IMG/VR virus record: IMGVR_UViG_3300046011_007800
Span: 1-23,956 of that record
DNA length: 23,956 nucleotides
Strand: one strand, 5' to 3'
Source of the DNA: a virus
Of the stretch, positions 9,549 to 23,956 are shown piece after piece. The notes beneath the pieces were generated by a model. It saw nothing but the letters and a program-made list of their open reading frames with translations. It had not been told where the DNA came from and made no database searches. Each line of letters opens with the position of its first letter. Within the stretch, counting starts at the first letter, position 1. The position numbers were made by a program, and so were the translations under genes.

Positions 9549-12542
9549 TTAAGCGCTAAGGTTAACAGAGAAGACAATTTGTCTAAGTTCAAAGACAGGT
9601 GTAATGCTGACTTTGACTGTCATCTTGCCAAGTACACGATCAGCGGGACTTTGCTCAATTGTAAATGTACCACGTGTAATTGTCTGAACAGGCTCACCAG
9701 CAAGGTTAGCCTTAAAGACCTCAGAGAGTGAAGCCTCAAGTGCGTTTCTCTTAGGAGCAGAAAGACCTTTACCAATGAAAGGACGAGCTGCATCTCTAAG
9801 CTCTTTGGCAATCTTAGAAACAATTCTAATACTGGTTAGACGTGTGTAATCGCTAGTTGGGCTAGCAAAGGTTGGCGAATCAACAATGATAGCATTGCCA
9901 TTATCATCACGGCCCATCACAAGTCCAAGACCAGAGCCCATGTCAAGCACCTTAGCTTCTGTACGATAGTTAATCGAAAGATTTGGAAGCTTAACATTAA
10001 TTAACGAATCAGGAGCAGGGGTGTTAATAAAGGACCCAGCAACCATTGCAACTGCACTTCCAAGATAGCTTGGGCGGCGAGGATTAATTGTATCAGCAAT
10101 AGCGCCAAAAACGCTGACTACAGAAATAAACTTACCAAGGTCAATCTTCTTTCCGTTTGCATCATAAAGAAGATTACCAGGGCTAAGATAGTCAATGCTC
10201 TTATCAGCCGTGGCGAAGAATCCGCCATGCTTAAGACCATTGTTGAAATCACTATGGCCGCCTACAAACTTATGACCAAGAAGACCAGTGCCATTATCTT
10301 CGGATGAAGCAATGTAGTATGTGCCGGTTTCAACGTCTAAGCTATAGGTTGGGGCCTTACCAAAGTAAGAACGAATAACACGAGGTGAAGTGCCCCCAGG
10401 AAGCTTGCAAGGAACAAGACCATGCACAAAGCTATAGTCTGTTGAGTTTTCATAGCAGTAAGAAGCAACCAAGTGAGCAAAGTTAACTTCCTTAAAGGCA
10501 AGACCTTCGGGAGCACTTGCTAGTGTTGATCCATCGCTTGTAAGTGAAAGAAGTTCTCCGTCCGTTGACCAGTAGTAAGTATATGTGTAATCACCATTGT
10601 CAACAATTGCACAATAGCCAAGGGCATCGTTCAATGAACCAACAGTAGGATACTGACCAACACCATCAACTGCTGAGAATGTAACCGCGCTCTCAGACGC
10701 GTTCTTTTCATTCAAGTTAGCATTAAGGGCAACAACATAATCAAAGGAAGCAAGATCAAGCTCTTCGAAGCAGGTATGAAGCTTCTCATAGCGCTTCATA
10801 GCAGGAAGAACTTCACCAGTCTCACCTAGAGAAAATACAGACTGAGTAACGCTAGTAGTATTAAGTACCGCATAATCAGTAAGGCCTAGATGGGTATAGG
10901 GTGCTTTGTTGATTCCGTAAGAGCGAGCGAGACCGCCAGCCTTAATGTAATCAAGCTGCACAAACACACCGCCAACTGCAGAAGCAAAAGGACGAAGAGG
11001 ATCAGCTGGGTATAGACCAATGTCTGCAGCCCCACCATATGACCATGAATCATCAATCGTTAGTGTCACACCACCAAGGCCACTGTTGCCAGTTGCTGTA
11101 GGAGCAGCCGTAAAGAAGGGACGAGCTGTGTATCCTGCCCAAGTGTGGCTTGCAGGATAAACAAGATCTCCGTCCGCATTGGTATCACCACCGGCAACAA
11201 TGTAAAGATCACTGCCATCATTATCAGCGTAGAAAGGAAGCTTCAAGAATTCTGCATTATCATTAAGAGCCTCTTTTAGGGCTGCTGCAACATCACTATT
11301 GCTTGTTAGCGTACCAGTGGTAACACCAGTAGCAACAATACCAGAGATAGCAAATGTGTATGTTAGTGGGCTTGCCGTTGTAAAGCCTTGAGCTGCGTAT
11401 GTACCAGCAACACTAGCAATTGATGCTACTGCGCCTCTAACTTTACCTGTACCAGTAGCTGCAGCGCCAGTTATAGCACCTGAGACGTTGACAGTAACAG
11501 CAATAGTAGCATCATTTGCCGTACTTGCTCCACCAAGATCAGTGCCAAGTACAGTAATATCACCAGCGCTATATCCAGTTCCAGGAGTTGTGATAGTTAC
11601 ACTGTAAACGCCACCTGCAGAAACTCCAATGGTTGCTCTAGCATTGTCGTGGCCGTCGCCGTCGTCAAGCACAACATTAGTATATGTACGAACAGCGCCT
11701 GTGACTGTAGCAACAGAAAAAGTAAGATCGTTAGTGCCAGCACCACCACCAAGAAGATCGCCAGCAACAAGAAGCTCTTCGCCAACTGCATAAAGCGAAC
11801 CACCACCTACTACACTAACTGTAGTTTCTGAGTAAGGTCCAGTTCCATCAAATGTAGGAACACCTTGAACTCTAAGTAAAGCTCCAGTGCCAGGACCAGA
11901 ACCATCATACTCGGTAGCAACACTAGCATAGGTCTTAGAGCCACTGGTAACACTAACGGAAAGCACTTCAGCCTCAGCGCCCATACCAACAACAGTAGGA
12001 GCAACGTCGCCTAACTCAAACTCAACGTCAACTTCACCGCTATCAATAATAGCACCCTCTGCTGCCGTACCTGACCACACGATCGTTGAAGTTTCAAGGT
12101 TGACAATTAGAAGCTCGCCAGTAGCAGCAACTTGATTAGCGCTATCTTCTGGGCTGTCAGAGATATTCTTAGAGTGGCGATATGCAACGCCATACTTAGC
12201 AGCAGCCTCAGGAGAAGCATGCTTAGGTGTAATTTTGAAACCAAGTTCAGCAACAGAAATATCAGCGCCAATCTTTGTTACATAAGGAGCTACACCAGGA
12301 AGACGATAAACATAAATGTTTGTCGCGCCGCCGGCACGAGCTTCAGCAACACCTTTAGCAACTTCTGAATTCGAACCAAATTCAGTTAAAGTGCCTTGGA
12401 GACCATTAGCGAGATAAGGCTCAGACGTTAAACCCTTAGATGCAGTACCGATAATTAAAACAGTCTGGCTATTATCTGGGACAAAGCTACTAAGATTTCC
12501 GTCTTGAAGTTGAACGTAACTACCGGGTAGGTTTACATACAT
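9549..12542 (-). CDS. Contractile tail sheath protein with large repeat insertion
   Basis: 997 residues, ATG at 12542 five bases after AAAGGAG. The N-terminus has the sheath signature: MYVNLPGSYVQLQDG, then VLIIGTASKG and EPYLANG, corresponding to the PG-Y-V and V-IG-A-KG pattern of phage sheaths. The C-terminal ~150 residues are also typical: RLTSIRIVSKIAKELRDAAR, GKGLSAPKRNALEASL, a TRGTFTIEQSPAD strand and the final RQIVFSVNLSA. The protein contracts around the tube to drive DNA delivery. It is much longer than common sheaths (T4 gp18 is 659 residues). The excess is mostly a glycine/threonine/valine-rich beta region at about residues 185-500, including two ~75-residue repeats. This insertion probably decorates the sheath surface. 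Confidence 0.93.
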   Translation of the reverse strand: MYVNLPGSYVQLQDGNLSSFVPDNSQTVLIIGTASKGLTSEPYLANGLQGTLTEFGSNSEVAKGVAEARAGGATNIYVYRLPGVAPYVTKIGADISVAELGFKITPKHASPEAAAKYGVAYRHSKNISDSPEDSANQVAATGELLIVNLETSTIVWSGTAAEGAIIDSGEVDVEFELGDVAPTVVGMGAEAEVLSVSVTSGSKTYASVATEYDGSGPGTGALLRVQGVPTFDGTGPYSETTVSVVGGGSLYAVGEELLVAGDLLGGGAGTNDLTFSVATVTGAVRTYTNVVLDDGDGHDNARATIGVSAGGVYSVTITTPGTGYSAGDITVLGTDLGGASTANDATIAVTVNVSGAITGAAATGTGKVRGAVASIASVAGTYAAQGFTTASPLTYTFAISGIVATGVTTGTLTSNSDVAAALKEALNDNAEFLKLPFYADNDGSDLYIVAGGDTNADGDLVYPASHTWAGYTARPFFTAAPTATGNSGLGGVTLTIDDSWSYGGAADIGLYPADPLRPFASAVGGVFVQLDYIKAGGLARSYGINKAPYTHLGLTDYAVLNTTSVTQSVFSLGETGEVLPAMKRYEKLHTCFEELDLASFDYVVALNANLNEKNASESAVTFSAVDGVGQYPTVGSLNDALGYCAIVDNGDYTYTYYWSTDGELLSLTSDGSTLASAPEGLAFKEVNFAHLVASYCYENSTDYSFVHGLVPCKLPGGTSPRVIRSYFGKAPTYSLDVETGTYYIASSEDNGTGLLGHKFVGGHSDFNNGLKHGGFFATADKSIDYLSPGNLLYDANGKKIDLGKFISVVSVFGAIADTINPRRPSYLGSAVAMVAGSFINTPAPDSLINVKLPNLSINYRTEAKVLDMGSGLGLVMGRDDNGNAIIVDSPTFASPTSDYTRLTSIRIVSKIAKELRDAARPFIGKGLSAPKRNALEASLSEVFKANLAGEPVQTITRGTFTIEQSPADRVLGKMTVKVSITPVFELRQIVFSVNLSA
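11463..11690 (-). repeat. Sheath insertion repeat, copy 2 (residues ~285-360)
   Basis: Second unit, directly after copy 1: YTNVVLDDGDGHDNARATIG, then SAGGVYSVTITTPGTGYSAG, DITVLGTDLGGASTANDATI, and VNVSGAITGA. The GTGYSAGDITVLGTDLGG core matches LYAVGEELLVAGDLLGG of copy 1. Confidence 0.55.
11694..11936 (-). repeat. Sheath insertion repeat, copy 1 (residues ~203-283)
   Basis: This unit of the sheath gene encodes a Y-V strand, a DGSGPGTGALLRVQG segment, then VGGGSLYAVGEELLVAGDLL, GGGAGTNDLTFSV and TGAV. It aligns with the following unit: the G-S/V-Y, G-Y/A-x-G-E/D, LGG, T-ND and V-x-V-x-G-A positions correspond. The similarity is at protein level; the DNA is not a perfect repeat, so the duplication is old or selected. 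Glycine-rich units of this pattern are common in phage surface fibres and decoration proteins. Confidence 0.55.
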
Positions 12543-16320: not shown

Positions 16321-16358
16321 CAAAAAGAAAGCCCCCAGGCCTTTCGACCTGAGGGCTA
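16321..16358 (-). terminator. Rho-independent terminator after the major capsid gene
   Basis: On the minus strand AGCCCTCAGG (16357-16348) pairs with CCTGGGGGCT (16339-16330), ten pairs including one G-U, with an eight-base loop TCGAAAGG. TTTCTTTTT follows. It starts about 20 bases after the capsid stop. It would end the head-gene transcript, or attenuate it so that capsid protein is made in excess over neck proteins. Confidence 0.85.
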
Positions 16359-16377: not shown

Positions 16378-17664
16378 TTATGAATTAGTAGGGAAGTTTG
16401 AGCTACCGTTGATAGCATCACCAGCAGGAAGGAAACCAGAGGTGGGATCGTAAACAGGACGTGCAATCTCAGGAGCGTAGAAGTTCTGGTCGCAGAAGAT
16501 ATTCTTAAGCGTGACTAGACCCTGGCCTTCGTTGTACATGAAGATACCCCACTTCTCTGACCACTTCATCTTGAAGGTCTCGAAGTACTTGTCTTCCCAC
16601 TCATCAGCAACAATGCCTGAACCAACAATTAGAGCACCAAGTGACTTGCTATCGCAAAGAACGATATCGGTAAGCTTAGTAGCAGGATCGTAAGGCATAA
16701 AGCGTGAGGTCACAATGCGGAGACCAAACGGAAGACCAATAGGAAGCTGAGGAGCAGCTGTAATGGCATTAACGTTAAAGTCCTTAAGCGAGGCCGAGGA
16801 ACCATCGGCACCAGTACCAAGCTGACCGCGTGAATAACCCTTTGAAAGAACACCCTTAACGGCATCAGGGACACCGCTAACGTTGGCAGCTGAACCCGTG
16901 TAGTTACCAAAGAGATTGCCGCTACCGCTCTGCATGGCAAATGCACGAAGGACGGGGTCGCGGACAAACATAAGGTACGTAAGCGGATGGCAGATTAGCG
17001 TATCAGGCGTGAAACCTCTCTGGATGAGAAGGTGGTACGCGTTGAAAAGGTCATCAATGGTAAGAGTACCATTAGTCTTGAGCGTAATGTCACGACCAGT
17101 GGTGATACCAAGAGCTGACTGCTCAGGATTAAGATTGTCGAAAGCAGGAACGCTGATGTTCGTGATGTGCTTAGCGATTTCGGTCTCCTTGCGGCGAGCG
17201 AAAGCACGACCAGCCTCACGAGCAAGGTAACCAAGAAGATTCCAGTTGGAAGCCTTGATTGCCTCTTGCGTAAGGGAGATCATAACACCCCACTTGTCGA
17301 TGGCGGCCGTAGCCATACCACCGCCAGTTGTCACACGCTCTTCACGGTAACCTTCAAGCTCAGTGACCTTATGGACAGTGAAAGCTGAAAGGGCAGGAAG
17401 GCGGAACTCAGTAATACCATCCGGCGCAGGAATGGTATCAAGGAGTGGGGTAAGATTGAGCATAGGCTCCATCGGCTCCATCATAATCTCAACAATTGAG
17501 TGCTTGACCCAGGGCCCAAGCTCAGCTGACGTAATCGCGTCTTCGATTGAAAGACGTGAGTCGCTGGAGTGGTCTGAGCCAGGAAGCCAACCGTTGTTCT
17601 TGATGAGCGCTGTAAGCTCACTCTGATCAGCAATTTCTAGGTTCTTGTGCTTTAGTCTTGACAT
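16378..17664 (-). CDS. Major capsid protein (HK97 fold)
   Basis: 428 residues, ATG at 17664 after AAGGAGA. The pattern fits an HK97-fold major capsid protein: a helical N-arm (residues ~1-60), a strand pair with YREERVTTGGGMATAAIDKW (~106-125, extended-loop region), then the backbone-helix motif GVMISLTQEAIKASNWNLLG and YLAREAGRAFARRKETEIAK, the P-domain stretch LTIDDLFNAYHLLIQRGFTP, DTLICHPLTYLMFVRDP, and later strands LPFGLRIVTSRFMP and LGALIVGSGI, which are typical A-domain elements. It is followed by a strong terminator and has GC-richer codon use than most neighbours, both consistent with very high expression. No obvious long N-terminal delta domain is present, in line with a separate scaffold. 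Confidence 0.85.
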   Translation of the reverse strand: MSRLKHKNLEIADQSELTALIKNNGWLPGSDHSSDSRLSIEDAITSAELGPWVKHSIVEIMMEPMEPMLNLTPLLDTIPAPDGITEFRLPALSAFTVHKVTELEGYREERVTTGGGMATAAIDKWGVMISLTQEAIKASNWNLLGYLAREAGRAFARRKETEIAKHITNISVPAFDNLNPEQSALGITTGRDITLKTNGTLTIDDLFNAYHLLIQRGFTPDTLICHPLTYLMFVRDPVLRAFAMQSGSGNLFGNYTGSAANVSGVPDAVKGVLSKGYSRGQLGTGADGSSASLKDFNVNAITAAPQLPIGLPFGLRIVTSRFMPYDPATKLTDIVLCDSKSLGALIVGSGIVADEWEDKYFETFKMKWSEKWGIFMYNEGQGLVTLKNIFCDQNFYAPEIARPVYDPTSGFLPAGDAINGSSNFPTNS

Positions 17665-17698: not shown

Positions 17699-19222
17699 TT
17701 AGAGTAGGACGCGCACGATGGCAGCGAACTGACCACCGGTTGACTGATGAATTTCCGCAGGGTGACCATCATTAGCCGAACCAGGAGTACGATCAGCGAG
17801 TGACACGCCATCATAATCATGGAAAGTCTTGACAGAAGCAAGATCAGCCTTAGGTGAACGGTCAAGTGTATAGCACTTACCAACAATGTCTTCAGGGCGA
17901 TGGTAACCAGCAGGATCTGACCAGATTACGCAAATCCCAGCAACTGTTTCGCTTGCAGCAGAGCTGTCAACCGAGACACCAACTTCAGCAGGACGAGCCA
18001 CATAAGGAACAAAGTTTGAATACTTGTCATAGGCAAGATAATCACCAGGCTTGACATTACCACTCACACCAGCAAACACTGCAACGTCAACAACCTGATC
18101 ATCAGAGTCAGCATCAGGATCCGTAGCATCAGCACCAAGAAGTGCAGCAGCAGGAGTTGGTGAATAGCTGAATGTAACAACAGTACCAGCAGCAGCAAGC
18201 GTACCGGCACCACCATCTTCATACATGAAAAGAATACCAAGATCACGATCAACAAAGTAATCGCCAGTCTTCTTTAGACTGTCAGGGCTACCCTTCTCAG
18301 CCTTAAGAGTTGCAGCACTAACCGCAGCAGAACCATAAGTAATAGGATTATAAAGGTTATGCTCAATGTTCTTACGACCGAAAGCAAGAGCAACCCAGTT
18401 TTCATTTGTTACGTCAGCGTAACGAACAGGAAGAAGCCCCTTAAGTACTGAATCGAGTTCTTCACCAAGAAGCCACTGGGGATAGGCAGGAGACTCAAGC
18501 TCAGCAAGAGTAGAAATCTTGTAGCTACCAGCAAGGGTAGTAAGAGTACCGCTCTTCACAGGGGCGACAGGAAGGCGAAGAGTGTGATCCTGACCAGTCC
18601 AGAACGTTGACTTGTTCTCACGACGATAGTTCATGAAACGAAGCTTATTGGGCTGCGTACCATCACCGCCGGCCCAAGCGTAAACCACGTTAGCAGCTAC
18701 GCCGATTGGGCGAGAAATGAAAGCATCACAAGTCTCTGAAGCACCAAGAAGACCACGACGCTTAAGGGCTAAAGTGACCTCAGCAACACTATACTCAACA
18801 GCACCAGCAACAGGAAGACCAGTTGTAAGGTCTTCAATGCGCTCAGCGACATCTTTGGACGTATACTTAAGAATCTTAGTAGTATCACCGGCAGCAAGAG
18901 CAGCCTTCCAAGCAAGACGAATACCAGCAGGAACAAGACGACCTACTGTGCCATGATTGATTGAGGAAGTAGCATTGTCACCATTAAGGCTTTCACGCGT
19001 AAGAGCGACAAGCTTACCAGGCATGATAACAACCTTATCGGTAAAGACGTGACGCTGATAGTCATAAGTAAAATAGCCAGCGCCTGAATTGGTAGCGCTA
19101 CGGCTAATTGGGAGCCAAGCCGCAGCGGCAAGGTCATTCTGAGGGGCAACCGTATCGCCATGCGTAGGGGCGATAATCGGCTTACCATAATCGATATCTC
19201 TAAACTTTCTGTATGTTGCCAT
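17699..19222 (-). CDS. Virion structural protein upstream of the capsid gene, possible head decoration or fibre protein
   Basis: 507 residues, starting MATYRKFRDIDYGKPI at 19222 with AGGAGAAAATT before the ATG. Composition is rich in A, G, T, D and S with many short strands and few charged helices, typical of a beta-rich structural protein. No signal peptide or membrane segment is visible. Internal landmarks are RPIGVAANVVYAWAGGDGTQ (~190), YFVDRDLGILFMYEDGGAG (~355), the aspartate-rich DATDPDADSDDQ (~395), and a C-terminus with GGQFAAIVRVLL. It is transcribed immediately before the major capsid gene and shares that gene's GC-richer codon use, which suggests an abundant head component such as a decoration protein or capsid fibre. 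I do not recognise the family. Confidence 0.6.
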   Translation of the reverse strand: MATYRKFRDIDYGKPIIAPTHGDTVAPQNDLAAAAWLPISRSATNSGAGYFTYDYQRHVFTDKVVIMPGKLVALTRESLNGDNATSSINHGTVGRLVPAGIRLAWKAALAAGDTTKILKYTSKDVAERIEDLTTGLPVAGAVEYSVAEVTLALKRRGLLGASETCDAFISRPIGVAANVVYAWAGGDGTQPNKLRFMNYRRENKSTFWTGQDHTLRLPVAPVKSGTLTTLAGSYKISTLAELESPAYPQWLLGEELDSVLKGLLPVRYADVTNENWVALAFGRKNIEHNLYNPITYGSAAVSAATLKAEKGSPDSLKKTGDYFVDRDLGILFMYEDGGAGTLAAAGTVVTFSYSPTPAAALLGADATDPDADSDDQVVDVAVFAGVSGNVKPGDYLAYDKYSNFVPYVARPAEVGVSVDSSAASETVAGICVIWSDPAGYHRPEDIVGKCYTLDRSPKADLASVKTFHDYDGVSLADRTPGSANDGHPAEIHQSTGGQFAAIVRVLL

Positions 19223-19243: not shown

Positions 19244-20059
19244 TTAGACTTTCACATCTAGTGGGTTAAACTTTCCTGAAATAAAGCCAGAACGCACCTG
19301 TTGCACAAGATAGTTCTCAGCTTTATTTATATCATGATTTCGTAATTCTTTATATTTACTAGCAACTCTGCGCTCTACAGAAGTCCAGTATTCAGGTGTG
19401 GTATCCATTGCATCTTCAATGGTATTCATATCAAGCTTCTTGCCAAGCTCTTTAGGCTCAACAGAATCTTCAATAACAATCTCTTCTGGCTCTGAGCTAT
19501 CAACAATCTCAGTTGTTGTTTCTTCTACTGAATCCATTGGCCCACTCATCTCTTCGCTAACTTCCTCAACAGAGGACTCTGAAGGAATTTCCATGCCAGC
19601 AGTCTGAAGGGAAGAACCAAGTTGCCACTGCCACTTCTGATGCATATCAATACGCTCAGCTACGAAGTTTGCAACACCTTGCTCATTAGCAGCATTAGCC
19701 ATGTCAAACACATTCTTAAGCATAGCAAGCATCACCACATTCTTCTTGTAAATATCAAGAGCAAGTTCACTTGCTTCAGTGGTCATAGAGTCGTCTTTGA
19801 TTGATGCTGTCTCGACCATATAAGTAAGAGAGTGAGGGAATGAACCAAGCTTGCGGATATTTTCAGCAAGTGGGTCTACTGAGCTAGAGTAGATGTCATC
19901 ATAGATATTTCCAAATAGCTCGTGATACTGAGCAAAGTCAGGACCAGCCACATTCCAATGTGCACGATGCGCAGTAGAGTAGAGAGCAATTACATTACTA
20001 AGCAAGCCCTTAAGGGCGTCAGCTACTTGAGCTGGGCTAGTTGTCATTTCAGTTTCCAT
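19244..20059 (-). CDS. Dps/ferritin-like protein with acidic linker and C-terminal extension
   Basis: 271 residues, ATG at 20059 six bases after GGAGG. Residues ~8-155 are a Dps-type four-helix bundle: LLSNVIALYSTAHRAHWNVA, then GPDFAQYHELFGNIYDDIY, DPLAENIRKLGSFP, and near the end GVANFVAERIDMHQKWQWQL. The Dps ferroxidase positions are H34 (HWN), H46 and the D62/E66 pair (DPLAE). The aspartate usually four residues after the second histidine is glycine here (G50), and one extra residue precedes D62, so iron oxidation may be altered. Residues ~156-205 are an acidic serine/glutamate linker, and ~210-271 a helical extension not found in ordinary Dps (EYWTSVERRVASKYKELRNH). The N-terminus is not lysine-rich, unlike DNA-binding Dps. 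Its place between protease and capsid genes suggests a virion or assembly role. Confidence 0.85.
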   Translation of the reverse strand: METEMTTSPAQVADALKGLLSNVIALYSTAHRAHWNVAGPDFAQYHELFGNIYDDIYSSSVDPLAENIRKLGSFPHSLTYMVETASIKDDSMTTEASELALDIYKKNVVMLAMLKNVFDMANAANEQGVANFVAERIDMHQKWQWQLGSSLQTAGMEIPSESSVEEVSEEMSGPMDSVEETTTEIVDSSEPEEIVIEDSVEPKELGKKLDMNTIEDAMDTTPEYWTSVERRVASKYKELRNHDINKAENYLVQQVRSGFISGKFNPLDVKV

Positions 20060-20104: not shown

Positions 20105-20133
20105 ATTCTAGCATAATTTCTATACTTTAGCCA
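20105..20133 (-). promoter_or_regulatory. Candidate extended -10 promoter upstream of the Dps-like gene
   Basis: The minus strand reads TATGCTAGAAT, a TGn-extended -10 (TAGAAT at 20110-20105). A poor -35 (TGGCTA, three of six matches to TTGACA) lies 17 bases upstream. It lies within the 67-base gap before the Dps-like gene, the longest gap in the head module apart from the portal/MuF junction, and would allow separate control. AT-rich DNA makes chance matches likely. Confidence 0.3.
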
Positions 20134-22877
20134 CCTATACCAGGAGAAGGATATGCACCAAGGGGAGGAGTCTCCTTCTTACTCCATACAATTGGAGCCA
20201 TAATCTTCCTAAGCTCTGAGGCCTTTTTGACAAGCACTTCCTCAGTCTTGTCGTATAGACCATCTTCGTTCATCCTAGCAATAGTAAGAATGGCTGCCGG
20301 ATCCTCCTCTGACGCATCTACACTCATGCCAGGACCATGAGTAACAGTTCCTTTGCTATGCATAGCATCAATGACTCCATATCCTTCTTTCATTTCAGCT
20401 GCGTCGTCTTGCTCACCAAGTGAACCTGAACTAACGCCAACTTCATTACCTTTGCTATCAAGGCGATAAGAAACAAAGTCACCTACAGCAAAAGTTGGCG
20501 TTGACGGAGTTGTATAAGTTTTCTCAGGAGTATAAGCATCTTCGACTGAAGACTTAACACTTTCCTCAATAGCAGTCTCAGCAACTGGCTCATTGTAAAC
20601 AAAGTCACCCATAACCCAAGGACCCTTAACTGAATCTTCAGTTCTCATACGTTCAATCTGGGCAGCTTTCGCATAAGCCCAAGTCTTGCCACCATCACCA
20701 CCCCAAAGATCCCAAGCAATGCGTCCAGCAGAAGGAAAACCTTCTTCGCCTTGGCTAAACCCAGGAGCCTTCTTGTCAACTTCATGACGTGCGAAGAAAC
20801 TCTTCATACGCATAACAGTAGAAGCAGAAAGTTCTTTCCGATTCATAAGATCTCTTGCGCGGGCGACGCCCACGGGCGTACCACCTCTTTTGAACTCTGC
20901 ACGCCACTCAAGAGCACGCTTAGCAGCTGATGCCATGCCTGGTGTTGGAACAAATCCCTCGGCTGCGTCATCGATTTCTTCAACAAATAAATCTTGAATT
21001 TCTTCACCAAACTCACTCTCATCCATCTTAGACTTACCAGCATCTTGCATACGTGCAAGCATCTTCTGGGCACGAGCCTGGATTGACTTAACCTTATCCT
21101 CAGCAAGACCCTTAACTTGAGGAGCTCTAGCAATTGCATTGCGAAGATGAGGAAGATCAACCTTACCATCTTCTCCCTTGTACGGGAGATGGCGAAGTGA
21201 ACGAGGCTTAGTTTTACCCTCTTCATCTTTCTCGCCACCTGGAGTAATATAAAAGAATGAGCTATCTGGGAGATTGTTAACGTAAGCGGTTGTCCAGACG
21301 GCATCATCAATGGTAATTGTCTTTACCATTTCAGAGAACATCTCAGCTGACATATCATCGGCTAGTTCTACATTAAAATTACTAGCAAGAAATTCCTTAA
21401 CAGAGTCTAGTAGTGACTTAGTATCAAGTTCAACCTTGGCAAGCTTTTCGTCAGCAATAGCTTTACCAGAGCGTAACTCTTCAAGCTCTGACATTACCTC
21501 TATAGGAGCAATAGATTTTGACTTAATGTATTCGTCAACAATTGAAAGGATTTCCTTCTTATTGTCTTCTGATAGTACGCTGGGCATTTCTTGCTCCTCT
21601 TGATTAGTTAGGTTAGTTTGATCTTCCATAGGTTCTGTTTTATTCGCAGAGACTAGTCCATCTGGAATAACAGCAAATCTGCAGTAACCATTTGACTCTA
21701 TGGTTTGGGAAATAATTTTACAACGATTCTCACTGGCATGAAGAGCACAATTACCACACTTAACACCAATGCTAAGATTTTCATTCTCTGGACCACTCTC
21801 ATAACCAACCCAAATACCGGGAGCCTTATCAAGGGGTCCAACTTTACTAGCAAGAGTCATTAAAGAATCTGCTAAAGCTTTCTCTTCCTCTGAAAGCTGG
21901 GTATACAGATCAACATCATCTTCTGCAATCTCGACTGGGAGCGTAGCAACTGGGCCATTGTCAAAGCTAGCCATAATCTCTGAGTCACTAATATCAGTAA
22001 CCGCATTCTTAAAACAATCAGTAACAACCATAGTAGTCTTAAAGTTTTCTAAATATTGCTGTAGAGCGTCACCACCAACCTCTTTATAATTCATTACTCT
22101 GGCATGTACGTCAGCGGGATGTGTAACATAAGCATAGCCACGATAGCGAAGACCACTTGGTACGCCATAGGCTTTAACGCCATCAATGTCATCGCCAATA
22201 TCCCATTCCATTTCATCAGTCTTGTATGATCTGCCGCTAATAGAATCGTAAAGATCATTAGGAGTCATCTCAACACTAACTGTGAGATAGCGGCCATCAA
22301 GGGTTTTCTCTACGGCTTCTGGATCTGTAACAAGTCCCTTGACAAGTACCCATCCAAGGCCCTCAAAATCCTCATCAGTCATCATTCCAGACTTGGCAAG
22401 CTTCTTCATATAGGGAGCCATAGCAACATCAGGAGCCTTAAGCATAAGGCCATCCTTGATCATTATAGAGCTAACATTATAAGCAGCTTTAGGGTTGTCT
22501 ACCCAGGTTCCACCAATGGCACGACCGACCGCGCCTACCTCTCTATTCTCAATCTTCTTACCATCAACGACAGCAACTTCCTTATGCATAGGCTTAATGG
22601 GAATGTTGTATGGATTAGTAAGTGTAGGAATTGCATCTTTCAAGTCAGATGGCATATAGATAAGATTGTTCTGAGTAGGTCTCATACCGTGAGTAACCTT
22701 TGTAAGAGTTACTAGACCAACCTTATTCTCTGCAACACCATCACTGATAAAGTATTTAAAATCAAGAAAGTGCGGGCTTTTCTTGTCCCACACTTCATGG
22801 GTAAAATCGCCCTTGACACTATTAACAAAATAGTCCTGAACAATACCTTCTTGTAATAGTCTTTTACTTATCTTCAT
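20127..22877 (-). CDS. Head maturation protease fused to scaffold and C-terminal accessory domains
   Basis: 916 residues, ATG at 22877 overlapping the MuF gene end by 14 bases. Residues ~35-265 look like a herpesvirus/HK97-type prohead protease: H98 (NIPIKPMHKE) and S201 (DGRYLTVSVEM) are the likely catalytic His and Ser, with H253 in VTHPADVHARV as possible third residue. C374, C377, C386 and C399 form a four-cysteine cluster (KCGNCALHASENRCK). Residues ~430-520 are acidic and helical, like a scaffold. About 545-612 (LRHLPYKGEDGKVDLPHLRN) and 650-745 (GVARARDLMNRKELSAS, then SAGRIAWDLWGGDGG) are two domains often seen in phage protease/scaffold polyproteins. Residues ~795-890 resemble a small SH3/Tudor-like barrel. 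It should process the capsid shell and scaffold. An internal start may release the scaffold part separately. Confidence 0.75.
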   Translation of the reverse strand: MKISKRLLQEGIVQDYFVNSVKGDFTHEVWDKKSPHFLDFKYFISDGVAENKVGLVTLTKVTHGMRPTQNNLIYMPSDLKDAIPTLTNPYNIPIKPMHKEVAVVDGKKIENREVGAVGRAIGGTWVDNPKAAYNVSSIMIKDGLMLKAPDVAMAPYMKKLAKSGMMTDEDFEGLGWVLVKGLVTDPEAVEKTLDGRYLTVSVEMTPNDLYDSISGRSYKTDEMEWDIGDDIDGVKAYGVPSGLRYRGYAYVTHPADVHARVMNYKEVGGDALQQYLENFKTTMVVTDCFKNAVTDISDSEIMASFDNGPVATLPVEIAEDDVDLYTQLSEEEKALADSLMTLASKVGPLDKAPGIWVGYESGPENENLSIGVKCGNCALHASENRCKIISQTIESNGYCRFAVIPDGLVSANKTEPMEDQTNLTNQEEQEMPSVLSEDNKKEILSIVDEYIKSKSIAPIEVMSELEELRSGKAIADEKLAKVELDTKSLLDSVKEFLASNFNVELADDMSAEMFSEMVKTITIDDAVWTTAYVNNLPDSSFFYITPGGEKDEEGKTKPRSLRHLPYKGEDGKVDLPHLRNAIARAPQVKGLAEDKVKSIQARAQKMLARMQDAGKSKMDESEFGEEIQDLFVEEIDDAAEGFVPTPGMASAAKRALEWRAEFKRGGTPVGVARARDLMNRKELSASTVMRMKSFFARHEVDKKAPGFSQGEEGFPSAGRIAWDLWGGDGGKTWAYAKAAQIERMRTEDSVKGPWVMGDFVYNEPVAETAIEESVKSSVEDAYTPEKTYTTPSTPTFAVGDFVSYRLDSKGNEVGVSSGSLGEQDDAAEMKEGYGVIDAMHSKGTVTHGPGMSVDASEEDPAAILTIARMNEDGLYDKTEEVLVKKASELRKIMAPIVWSKKETPPLGAYPSPGIGG
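21585..21599 (-). promoter_or_regulatory. Strong internal ribosome site and ATG within the protease gene
   Basis: The minus strand reads GAGGAGCAAGAAATG: a near-ideal Shine-Dalgarno six bases before an in-frame ATG (residue 431, MPSVLSEDNKKEIL). Starting here would give a 486-residue product (20127-21587) lacking the protease and cysteine parts, beginning exactly at the scaffold-like region. Nested scaffolds made this way are known (lambda Nu3 within C). The site also encodes QEEQEM, so a codon-driven coincidence is possible. Confidence 0.45.
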
Positions 22878-23376
22878 TAGCCTTCCTTATAATGACTTTG
22901 CTATTAGGATGATCAGGCGGTAAGTCATAATACTTACTATCTGAGATTTTTCTATTATCTATTATAGACTGACTACTTTGATTATATACCTGGTATGATT
23001 CTTCGCCGCTATCCTTCAGCGCATTGAAAACACCCCAGTTATAACTTCTCATTCTTTCTGTCTCATAGATAGTCATCATCCTATGACCAATAGTCTTAGC
23101 TGTGTCAGTTATAGTATTGCCTTGCCGATTGCGCATCTCAATATGTAACTTATCTATAAAAAACTTCTGAACCTTCAACTGGAATTCTATGTTGCCAGTA
23201 TGAGTCTCATTAGTTAAGTTAGAAGAGTCAGCATACTCAGAGTAGCCCTTTATGTAAGCTTTAATGCTGTTATCTTTGAGCATAATAGAGAAACGTTCAA
23301 ATGCTGCGTCAACAGTAAATTCAGGATGAATGTCATAGTCAGCATTTTCCCTTAGGTGGCCAACTAGTGCATTCAC
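22864..23376 (-). CDS. MuF-like minor head protein (may be the C-terminal part of a portal fusion)
   Basis: 170 residues if started at GTG 23376, which has GAGAGG only two bases upstream, a poor arrangement. The frame stays open upstream to a TAA formed at the A10 run (23515-23517), with no ATG, TTG or other GTG in between, so translation may enter from the portal gene by a -1 shift. The C-terminal half has the MuF/SPP1 gp7 pattern: IYETERMRSYNWGVFNALKD (TE-x-x-R-x-x-x-x-G) and LPPDHPNSKVIIRK, matching the usual PP-x-HPNCRC end but with S and V in place of the cysteines. Such proteins bind portal and DNA and are packaged in the head. It overlaps the protease gene by 14 bases. Confidence 0.65.
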   Translation of the reverse strand: MNALVGHLRENADYDIHPEFTVDAAFERFSIMLKDNSIKAYIKGYSEYADSSNLTNETHTGNIEFQLKVQKFFIDKLHIEMRNRQGNTITDTAKTIGHRMMTIYETERMRSYNWGVFNALKDSGEESYQVYNQSSQSIIDNRKISDSKYYDLPPDHPNSKVIIRKANEDK

Positions 23377-23498: not shown

Positions 23499-23956
23499 CT
23501 ATTGAATTTTTTTTTTAATATCTGCTGGATCTTTTTCAGTAGCCAAGGCTGGCTTCTTTGCTGTATTGCCGGCTGCCAGATCCCTAGCCTTCTGTAAGTC
23601 ACCAGAAGACATTGGAGTTTTGTCACTCTTTGCAGAGGTCTCAGCAAGAGGAGACATTGGGTTTGCCCCAAGTCTAAGAAGCTCTTGAGCTTCAGTAACC
23701 ATCTTGTAGTACGAATGATTCCAGTCATCATCTGTAGAGCTTGACATACCAATGCGATCTCTTAACTCATCATGGCTAATCGCGCTATTTAGCCATAGCT
23801 GAATAGCAGCATTCTCTTTCTTTATTTGATTTTCAACATCTATTTCTTTGAATCTAAGAACAACCTTATTCTCTGGTTCAAGCCAGTCAAAGCTATTATC
23901 TTCCGTACTTTCTTGAAGCATTGGAACAATAAGATGAGCGTAGATTTGCTCTTTTC
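23499..23956 (-). CDS. Portal protein, C-terminal part (runs off the right edge)
   Basis: About 151 residues are visible; the frame is open to the window edge, so the start lies outside. The stretch ENKVVLRFKEIDVENQIKKE followed by AIQLWLNSAISHDELRDRIG is the characteristic end of portal proteins (a beta strand with R/F-x-E/D-I-D, then a helix ending in x-x-E-x-R-x-x-x-G). The C-tail is polar and flexible (SPLAETSAKSDKTPMSSGDL, then DPADIKKKIQ). The portal is the dodecameric ring at the packaging vertex. The reading frame ends in IKKKIQ-stop just after a run of ten A (23507-23516 on the plus strand as T10). A -1 slip there joins it to the MuF frame. Confidence 0.78.
   Translation of the reverse strand, partial: KEQIYAHLIVPMLQESTEDNSFDWLEPENKVVLRFKEIDVENQIKKENAAIQLWLNSAISHDELRDRIGMSSSTDDDWNHSYYKMVTEAQELLRLGANPMSPLAETSAKSDKTPMSSGDLQKARDLAAGNTAKKPALATEKDPADIKKKIQ
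23507..23516 (-). other. A10 homopolymer: candidate -1 frameshift or transcript-slippage site
   Basis: The portal frame reads ATT AAA AAA AAA ATT CAA TAG. A -1 shift within the A run bypasses the stop and reads AAT TCA ATA GCG onward into an open frame that leads without interruption into the MuF domain. The new frame first encodes NSIALPSGKANANA and then RPSNQHGTKSGP. A one-base assembly or sequencing error in the homopolymer would give the same picture. Confidence 0.6.

Follow-up and report, generated by a model that had tools for sequence, protein, structure and literature searches.

In phage P22, the C-terminal helix-turn-helix of the scaffold binds coat protein and holds on to the inner capsid wall (PMC9965877), and cargo proteins fused to the P22 scaffold tail get loaded into P22 heads (PMC9962691). 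The internal proteins of phage T4 reach the head core via a targeting segment (PMC3012670). Phage-encoded Dps proteins have been treated as products of stress genes that act in the infected cell (PMC8008677, PMC6669764). Across the open-licence full texts searched, we found no description of Dps in virions or of its linkage to head genes or proteases.

Here we describe a viral Dps gene located within a head operon. The analysed DNA (hereafter the window) is the whole stretch of 23,956 nucleotides of the IMG/VR virus record IMGVR_UViG_3300046011_007800. All genes of its head operon lie on the minus strand and are transcribed in the order portal, 170-aa protein, 916-aa protease-scaffold, Dps, 507-aa protein, major capsid protein and tail genes, including the sheath. 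The window end cuts the portal gene, which encodes ~515 aa in relatives, leaving its C-terminal portion (23499..23954). Next come the 170-aa protein (22864..23376), which matches the KLEB27-3 portal protein in the C-terminal part of the latter, and the 916-aa homologue of prohead protease-scaffolds (20127..22877), which resembles the prohead protease of Bacillus phage KLEB27-3 and the product of the same-position gene of Moorella phage MTATph1. The Dps gene (19244..20059) is followed by the gene for the 507-aa head protein (17699..19222), which is syntenic in relatives and weakly similar to ME3 gp021, likewise encoded directly before a capsid gene. The 428-aa major capsid protein (16378..17664) matches Pfam Phage_capsid_4 (1.9e-10) and phrog_3922 (1.6e-9) and is similar to the capsid proteins of ME3, KLEB27-3 and MTATph1.

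An earlier note on this DNA had placed Dps between the maturation protease and the capsid genes. The gene does lie between the protease-scaffold and further head genes, but the 507-aa gene, which the note passes over as it does the strand, intervenes before the capsid. Phages with a Dps gene in the same order, which that note had pointed to as a check, were found: 19 public contigs (L002–L019 and L039) carry the window-type Dps or its tail, and the order is kept in each of them wherever neighbouring genes are covered.

Several other features of the operon were recorded. Residues 644–743 of the 916-aa protein (20649-20948, minus strand) form a phrog_2859 domain (1.7e-29; RHEVDKK...GYPS.GRIAW..WGGD), a domain of unknown function found again next to Dps and proteases in a number of unrelated head modules. 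The same protein contains a four-cysteine motif, KCGNC ... C ... GYC (21675-21761), which looks like a small Fe-S or metal-binding domain; this domain is also present in proteins adjoining or fused to Dps at L028, L035 and L128. By eye, the 916-aa homologue of L019 (4868-7918) has an extra C-terminal DUF5824-like domain. Just 3′ of the major capsid gene there is a strong terminator-like hairpin of 12 pairs, 8 of them G-C (16330-16357). The tail sheath protein (9549-12542) is unusually long, at 997 aa, and its N-terminal part, which is what the fetched loci cover, differs strongly between close relatives.

The Dps gene runs on the minus strand from an ATG at 20059 to a stop codon ending at 19244 and encodes 271 aa. 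Three parts can be distinguished: a ferritin-like four-helix bundle (residues 1–153; 19601..20059), an acidic linker (residues 154–222; 19394..19600) and a C-terminal hairpin (residues 223–271; 19247..19393). In profile searches residues 14–153 match Pfam Ferritin PF00210 (7.3e-11), while the 271-aa protein matches the phage Dps family PHROG 3636 (phrog_3636, 1.7e-21) and, among solved Dps structures, reaches 4.7e-18 at best. AlphaFold2 modelled the monomer with pLDDT above 90 in the bundle, below 50 in residues 162–222, which are predicted to be disordered, and about 90 in the hairpin. The predicted bundle helices span residues 9–36, 42–70, 96–123 and 127–153, with the short BC-loop helix typical of the Dps family at 78–84; the hairpin consists of helices 227–242 and 244–257. 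Foldseek aligned the bundle with Dps structures at target TM-scores of mostly 0.84–0.93. The linker carries a net charge of −19 and the final 49 residues one of +3. Conservation is highest in the tail (68–73%), lower in the bundle (57%) and lowest in the linker (33–35%).

By its modelled fold and its main ligands, the 271-aa protein is a Dps. The earlier note had read a Dps bundle with HWN at residues 34–36, an acidic linker and a helical C-terminal domain from the letters alone; the position of the motif was correct, and the remaining elements were borne out by the searches and models above, including the profile match on which the note had made its reading depend. The lysine-rich DNA-binding N-terminal tail known from some Dps proteins is absent: no lysine occurs in the N-terminus, METEMTTSPAQ. 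A Dps-specific promoter was considered and rejected, since promoter-like matches did not exceed shuffle expectation.

Gene order indicates that viral Dps is tied to head genes in most lineages examined, in several different ways. In 45 out of 68 clusters, Dps begins −4 to +17 nt after a gene encoding 540–620 aa, which proved to be the portal phrog_776 in all three cases tested. Where the capsid gene phrog_777 was found in the group's large records, it lies downstream of Dps on the same strand. In L078, L092, L021 and L073, which belong to the same group, the portal-Dps pair is followed by giant ORFs of 1–2.6 kaa in which hardly any domain can be recognised.

In four other clusters (L024, L026, L102 and L111), Dps is part of a 1–2 kaa protein with head maturation protease domains of the phrog_18402/859 type. 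The gene for this polyprotein lies directly or closely before another gene, which in L024, L026 and L102 encodes the phrog_777 capsid. Fusions of Dps to Peptidase_S78 were found at 53 loci (S78 match of 6.7e-39 in L135), and at 47 of these a PF04860-type portal directly precedes the fusion; chimeric assembly was rejected as their source, given that there are 53 loci from many metagenomes. Two further loci, L116 and L294, encode fusions with an XkdF protease in different domain orders, and in L134 Dps stands beside the capsid protein phrog_2522. As these arrangements occupy separate places in the tree, either head linkage arose more than once or the domain moved between head modules.

There are exceptions: in L133 Dps stands beside a replication gene, and in L124 and L283–L290 among unrecognised genes. 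L023, L025, L030 and L033 were grouped with these, their head linkage being unassigned.

The prohead protease acts inside the prohead, so its fusion to Dps is strong circumstantial evidence for an internal location. We think that in the window lineage a borrowed scaffold tail brings the Dps cage into the prohead, as part of head assembly, and put the probability of this reading at roughly 0.7. The bundle would fold and probably assemble into a Dps dodecamer. From each subunit a flexible acidic linker would extend, ending in a hairpin that, judging by the comparisons given below, was apparently taken from the C-terminus of a protease-scaffold. Like the C-terminal helix-turn-helix of the P22 scaffold, this hairpin most likely attaches to the capsid protein on its inner face, and the cages would thus be carried into the prohead. 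There the maturation protease encoded by the adjacent gene probably cuts the linker, which would leave compact cages among the packaged DNA. Iron uptake by the cages could then limit Fenton chemistry on packaged or newly injected DNA.

A broader version of this reading, in which Dps cages have acquired the scaffold's capsid-binding arm, serve as scaffold core and are also retained in the mature head as internal, possibly injected, iron-binding particles that protect DNA, with several independent fusions to unrelated prohead proteases, is one we hold only tentatively.

The iron-related steps depend on the ferroxidase site. The Dps site, formed between subunits by two histidines, an aspartate and a glutamate, is present as H34, H46, D62 and E66; together with W35, these residues are invariant in 59 aligned sequences. 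The residue four positions after the second histidine, which is acidic in canonical Dps, is not kept in the window protein (G50), and relatives have G, A, E, Q or S there, mostly G or A. Ferroxidase activity is therefore not assured. That the main ligands have been kept speaks for selection on metal chemistry in most lineages, and a cage equipped with them could bind iron and dampen Fenton reactions on DNA. In the XkdF-Dps fusion of L294 (1-2033), the Dps domain has SWN in place of HWN and lacks the usual glutamate, so its site looks degenerate; the C-terminal part of this protein resembles, by eye, a zeta-toxin-like or kinase P-loop domain.

The loss of the acidic position 50 and the altered site of L294 would fit a purely structural role, in which a dodecamer with twelve capsid-binding tails replaces or completes the scaffold while iron chemistry is incidental or lost. 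Such a role would also agree with the building of Dps domains into protease polyproteins and with the fact that in the window lineage only the Dps protein bears the scaffold tail. We nevertheless regard it as unlikely: a structural block has no need of four ligands that do not vary in 59 sequences, and related phages build heads of the same family without Dps.

Delivery by a borrowed scaffold tail rests in large part on the origin of the hairpin, which was approached through relatives of the capsid protein. A scan returned 80 loci, which beyond the window lineage belong mainly to phages with capsid proteins at 31–47% identity (L149–L217). The head genes of these phages are ordered portal, protease-scaffold, 507-like protein and capsid, and no Dps gene was found in the fetched stretches of their head operons. 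Most of their protease-scaffold proteins end in a hairpin with the motif iqerYlqlRfskGpeAAeayLddlrakGliP. The window-family Dps tail reads VASKYKELRNHDINKAENYLVQQVRSGFIS, and its stretch homologous to the scaffold tails covers residues 230–264 (19268-19372, minus strand).

A profile was trained on 47 scaffold tails and searched against 1907 proteins. Outside the training set, it found only two stretches in neighbouring scaffolds (L168 and L165) and the full-length window-family Dps tails, at 13–19 bits, with the next best match at about 5 bits. The window tail scored 18.3, a value reached by 0 of 20,000 shuffles (at most 12.3). Profile-profile comparison of Dps tails with scaffold tails gave a probability of 91–92%, against no more than 5.1% in 200 column-shuffled controls. 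The window's own 916-aa protease-scaffold did not yield the hairpin (profile-profile probabilities of 0.2–3.4%), so in the window lineage it sits on Dps. When the intermediates L149, L150 and L186 were left out, profile E-values rose to 0.07–4 and significance was lost; the Dps tails still stood near the top of the background ranking, with a profile-profile probability of 76%. A further scan for intermediates towards L149 and L150 returned only the same two phages and one additional contig. In other phages Dps is followed by a DUF5824-like domain, which was rejected as a counterpart of the tail (hhalign probability 0.2%).

The profile searches thus support homology between the Dps tail and the scaffold tails, over some 40 residues and with few intermediate sequences. 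On the simplest reading, the capsid-binding element at the scaffold C-terminus appears to have been relocated to the Dps gene; the scaffold role of the homologous tails is itself deduced from their position and sequence. The tail could instead be an unrelated helical extension, serving for example in oligomerisation or DNA binding, that came to resemble scaffold tails by convergence. The shortness of the stretch, its dependence on L149, L150 and L186, and a PDB fold search in which the tail alone had no match would all be compatible with this. Convergence is nonetheless quite improbable in our view, given the shuffle and background controls, the shared location, in both cases at the very C-terminal end and preceded by a negatively charged stretch, and the lack of the hairpin in the very protein that bears it in relatives. 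The earlier note's proposal, a ferritin-like shell brought into the head by its extension, was thereby strengthened rather than settled: the tail resembles the C-terminus of protease-scaffolds, and relatives are fused to prohead proteases.

To follow the viral Dps more widely, an alignment of twelve viral Dps domains was used as the query. It retrieved at least 595 relatives in viral contigs but only two in 84,980 bacterial and archaeal genomes, each on a short contig from a metagenome-assembled genome, with head genes on the same contig. The wider clade was not found in the cultured phages searched, which have only distant Dps genes (16 records; 26–34% identity where measured). Three of these were examined: in S-SRM01 and BUCT695 the gene stands among non-head genes, and in BS162P1 among unannotated ones.

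As for clues to the hosts, the photosystem gene psbA is absent from 20 records, and WhiB is present in 13 of 20 large records, mainly in the group with the phrog_777 capsid. WhiB is absent from the four window-lineage records, and hosts may therefore differ between groups.

A tree was built from 68 viral clusters together with five cellular Dps proteins encoded on plasmids and three from cultured phages; in it the viral clade stands apart from the sampled Dps of cells and cultured phages (support 99/98). That Dps is an ordinary stress gene, late merely by location, which has no part in the head and shields host DNA or replicating DNA in the cytoplasm, would accord with its place away from head genes in cultured phages and with the published interpretation (PMC8008677, PMC6669764), but it is very improbable, as it leaves the scaffold tail, the several prohead-protease fusions and the strict portal-Dps order unexplained, and the viral clade is a separate one.

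If delivery into the prohead is correct, a gene that is widespread in viruses and at present interpreted as serving against stress during infection would become a component of head assembly. Nature would here have used a scaffold tail to load an HK97-fold capsid with a ferritin-like cage, a strategy that engineers have imitated with P22, and the case would also touch on how phage capsids and encapsulins are related. Why many uncultured phages keep an iron-binding cage in their head operon thus becomes a testable question.

With the Dps mini-ferritins (MrgA 2chp, PA0962 8ff9 and Vibrio cholerae 3iq1) the window protein shares the fold and the four main ferroxidase ligands. Unlike them, it belongs to a separate viral clade, lies in a head operon and has a long acidic linker and a scaffold-like tail, while lacking the lysine-rich N-terminal tail and the acidic position 50. 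The stand-alone Dps proteins of cultured phages (Synechococcus S-SRM01, Aeromonas BUCT695, Bacteroides BS162P1 and Lactobacillus phages) are likewise phage-encoded, but have no tail and, where examined, lie outside head operons.

The earlier note had drawn a parallel with encapsulins. In encapsulins (PMC11202242, PMC6668986) and, it appears, in the window protein too, a C-terminal extension directs a ferritin-like protein into a shell of the HK97 fold; the parallel holds for function only. The window shell is a tailed-phage capsid with DNA packaging, encoded in a complete head operon with portal, protease and tail sheath genes, and the extension is a scaffold-type hairpin of ~35 residues, not a short cargo-loading peptide. 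The window Dps is therefore not encapsulin cargo.

By analogy, its mode of action is probably that of the T4 internal proteins or of engineered fusions to the P22 scaffold. T4 internal proteins likewise enter the prohead core by means of a dedicated targeting segment (PMC3012670); in the window protein this segment would be C-terminal and scaffold-like, the cargo a ferritin-like cage and the cleavage a presumed one. The P22 scaffold and the fusions engineered from it likewise use a C-terminal helical hairpin as the capsid-binding and loading element (PMC9965877, PMC9962691). The fusion in the window is, in contrast, a natural one, and its likeness to P22 is drawn as a structural and functional analogy.
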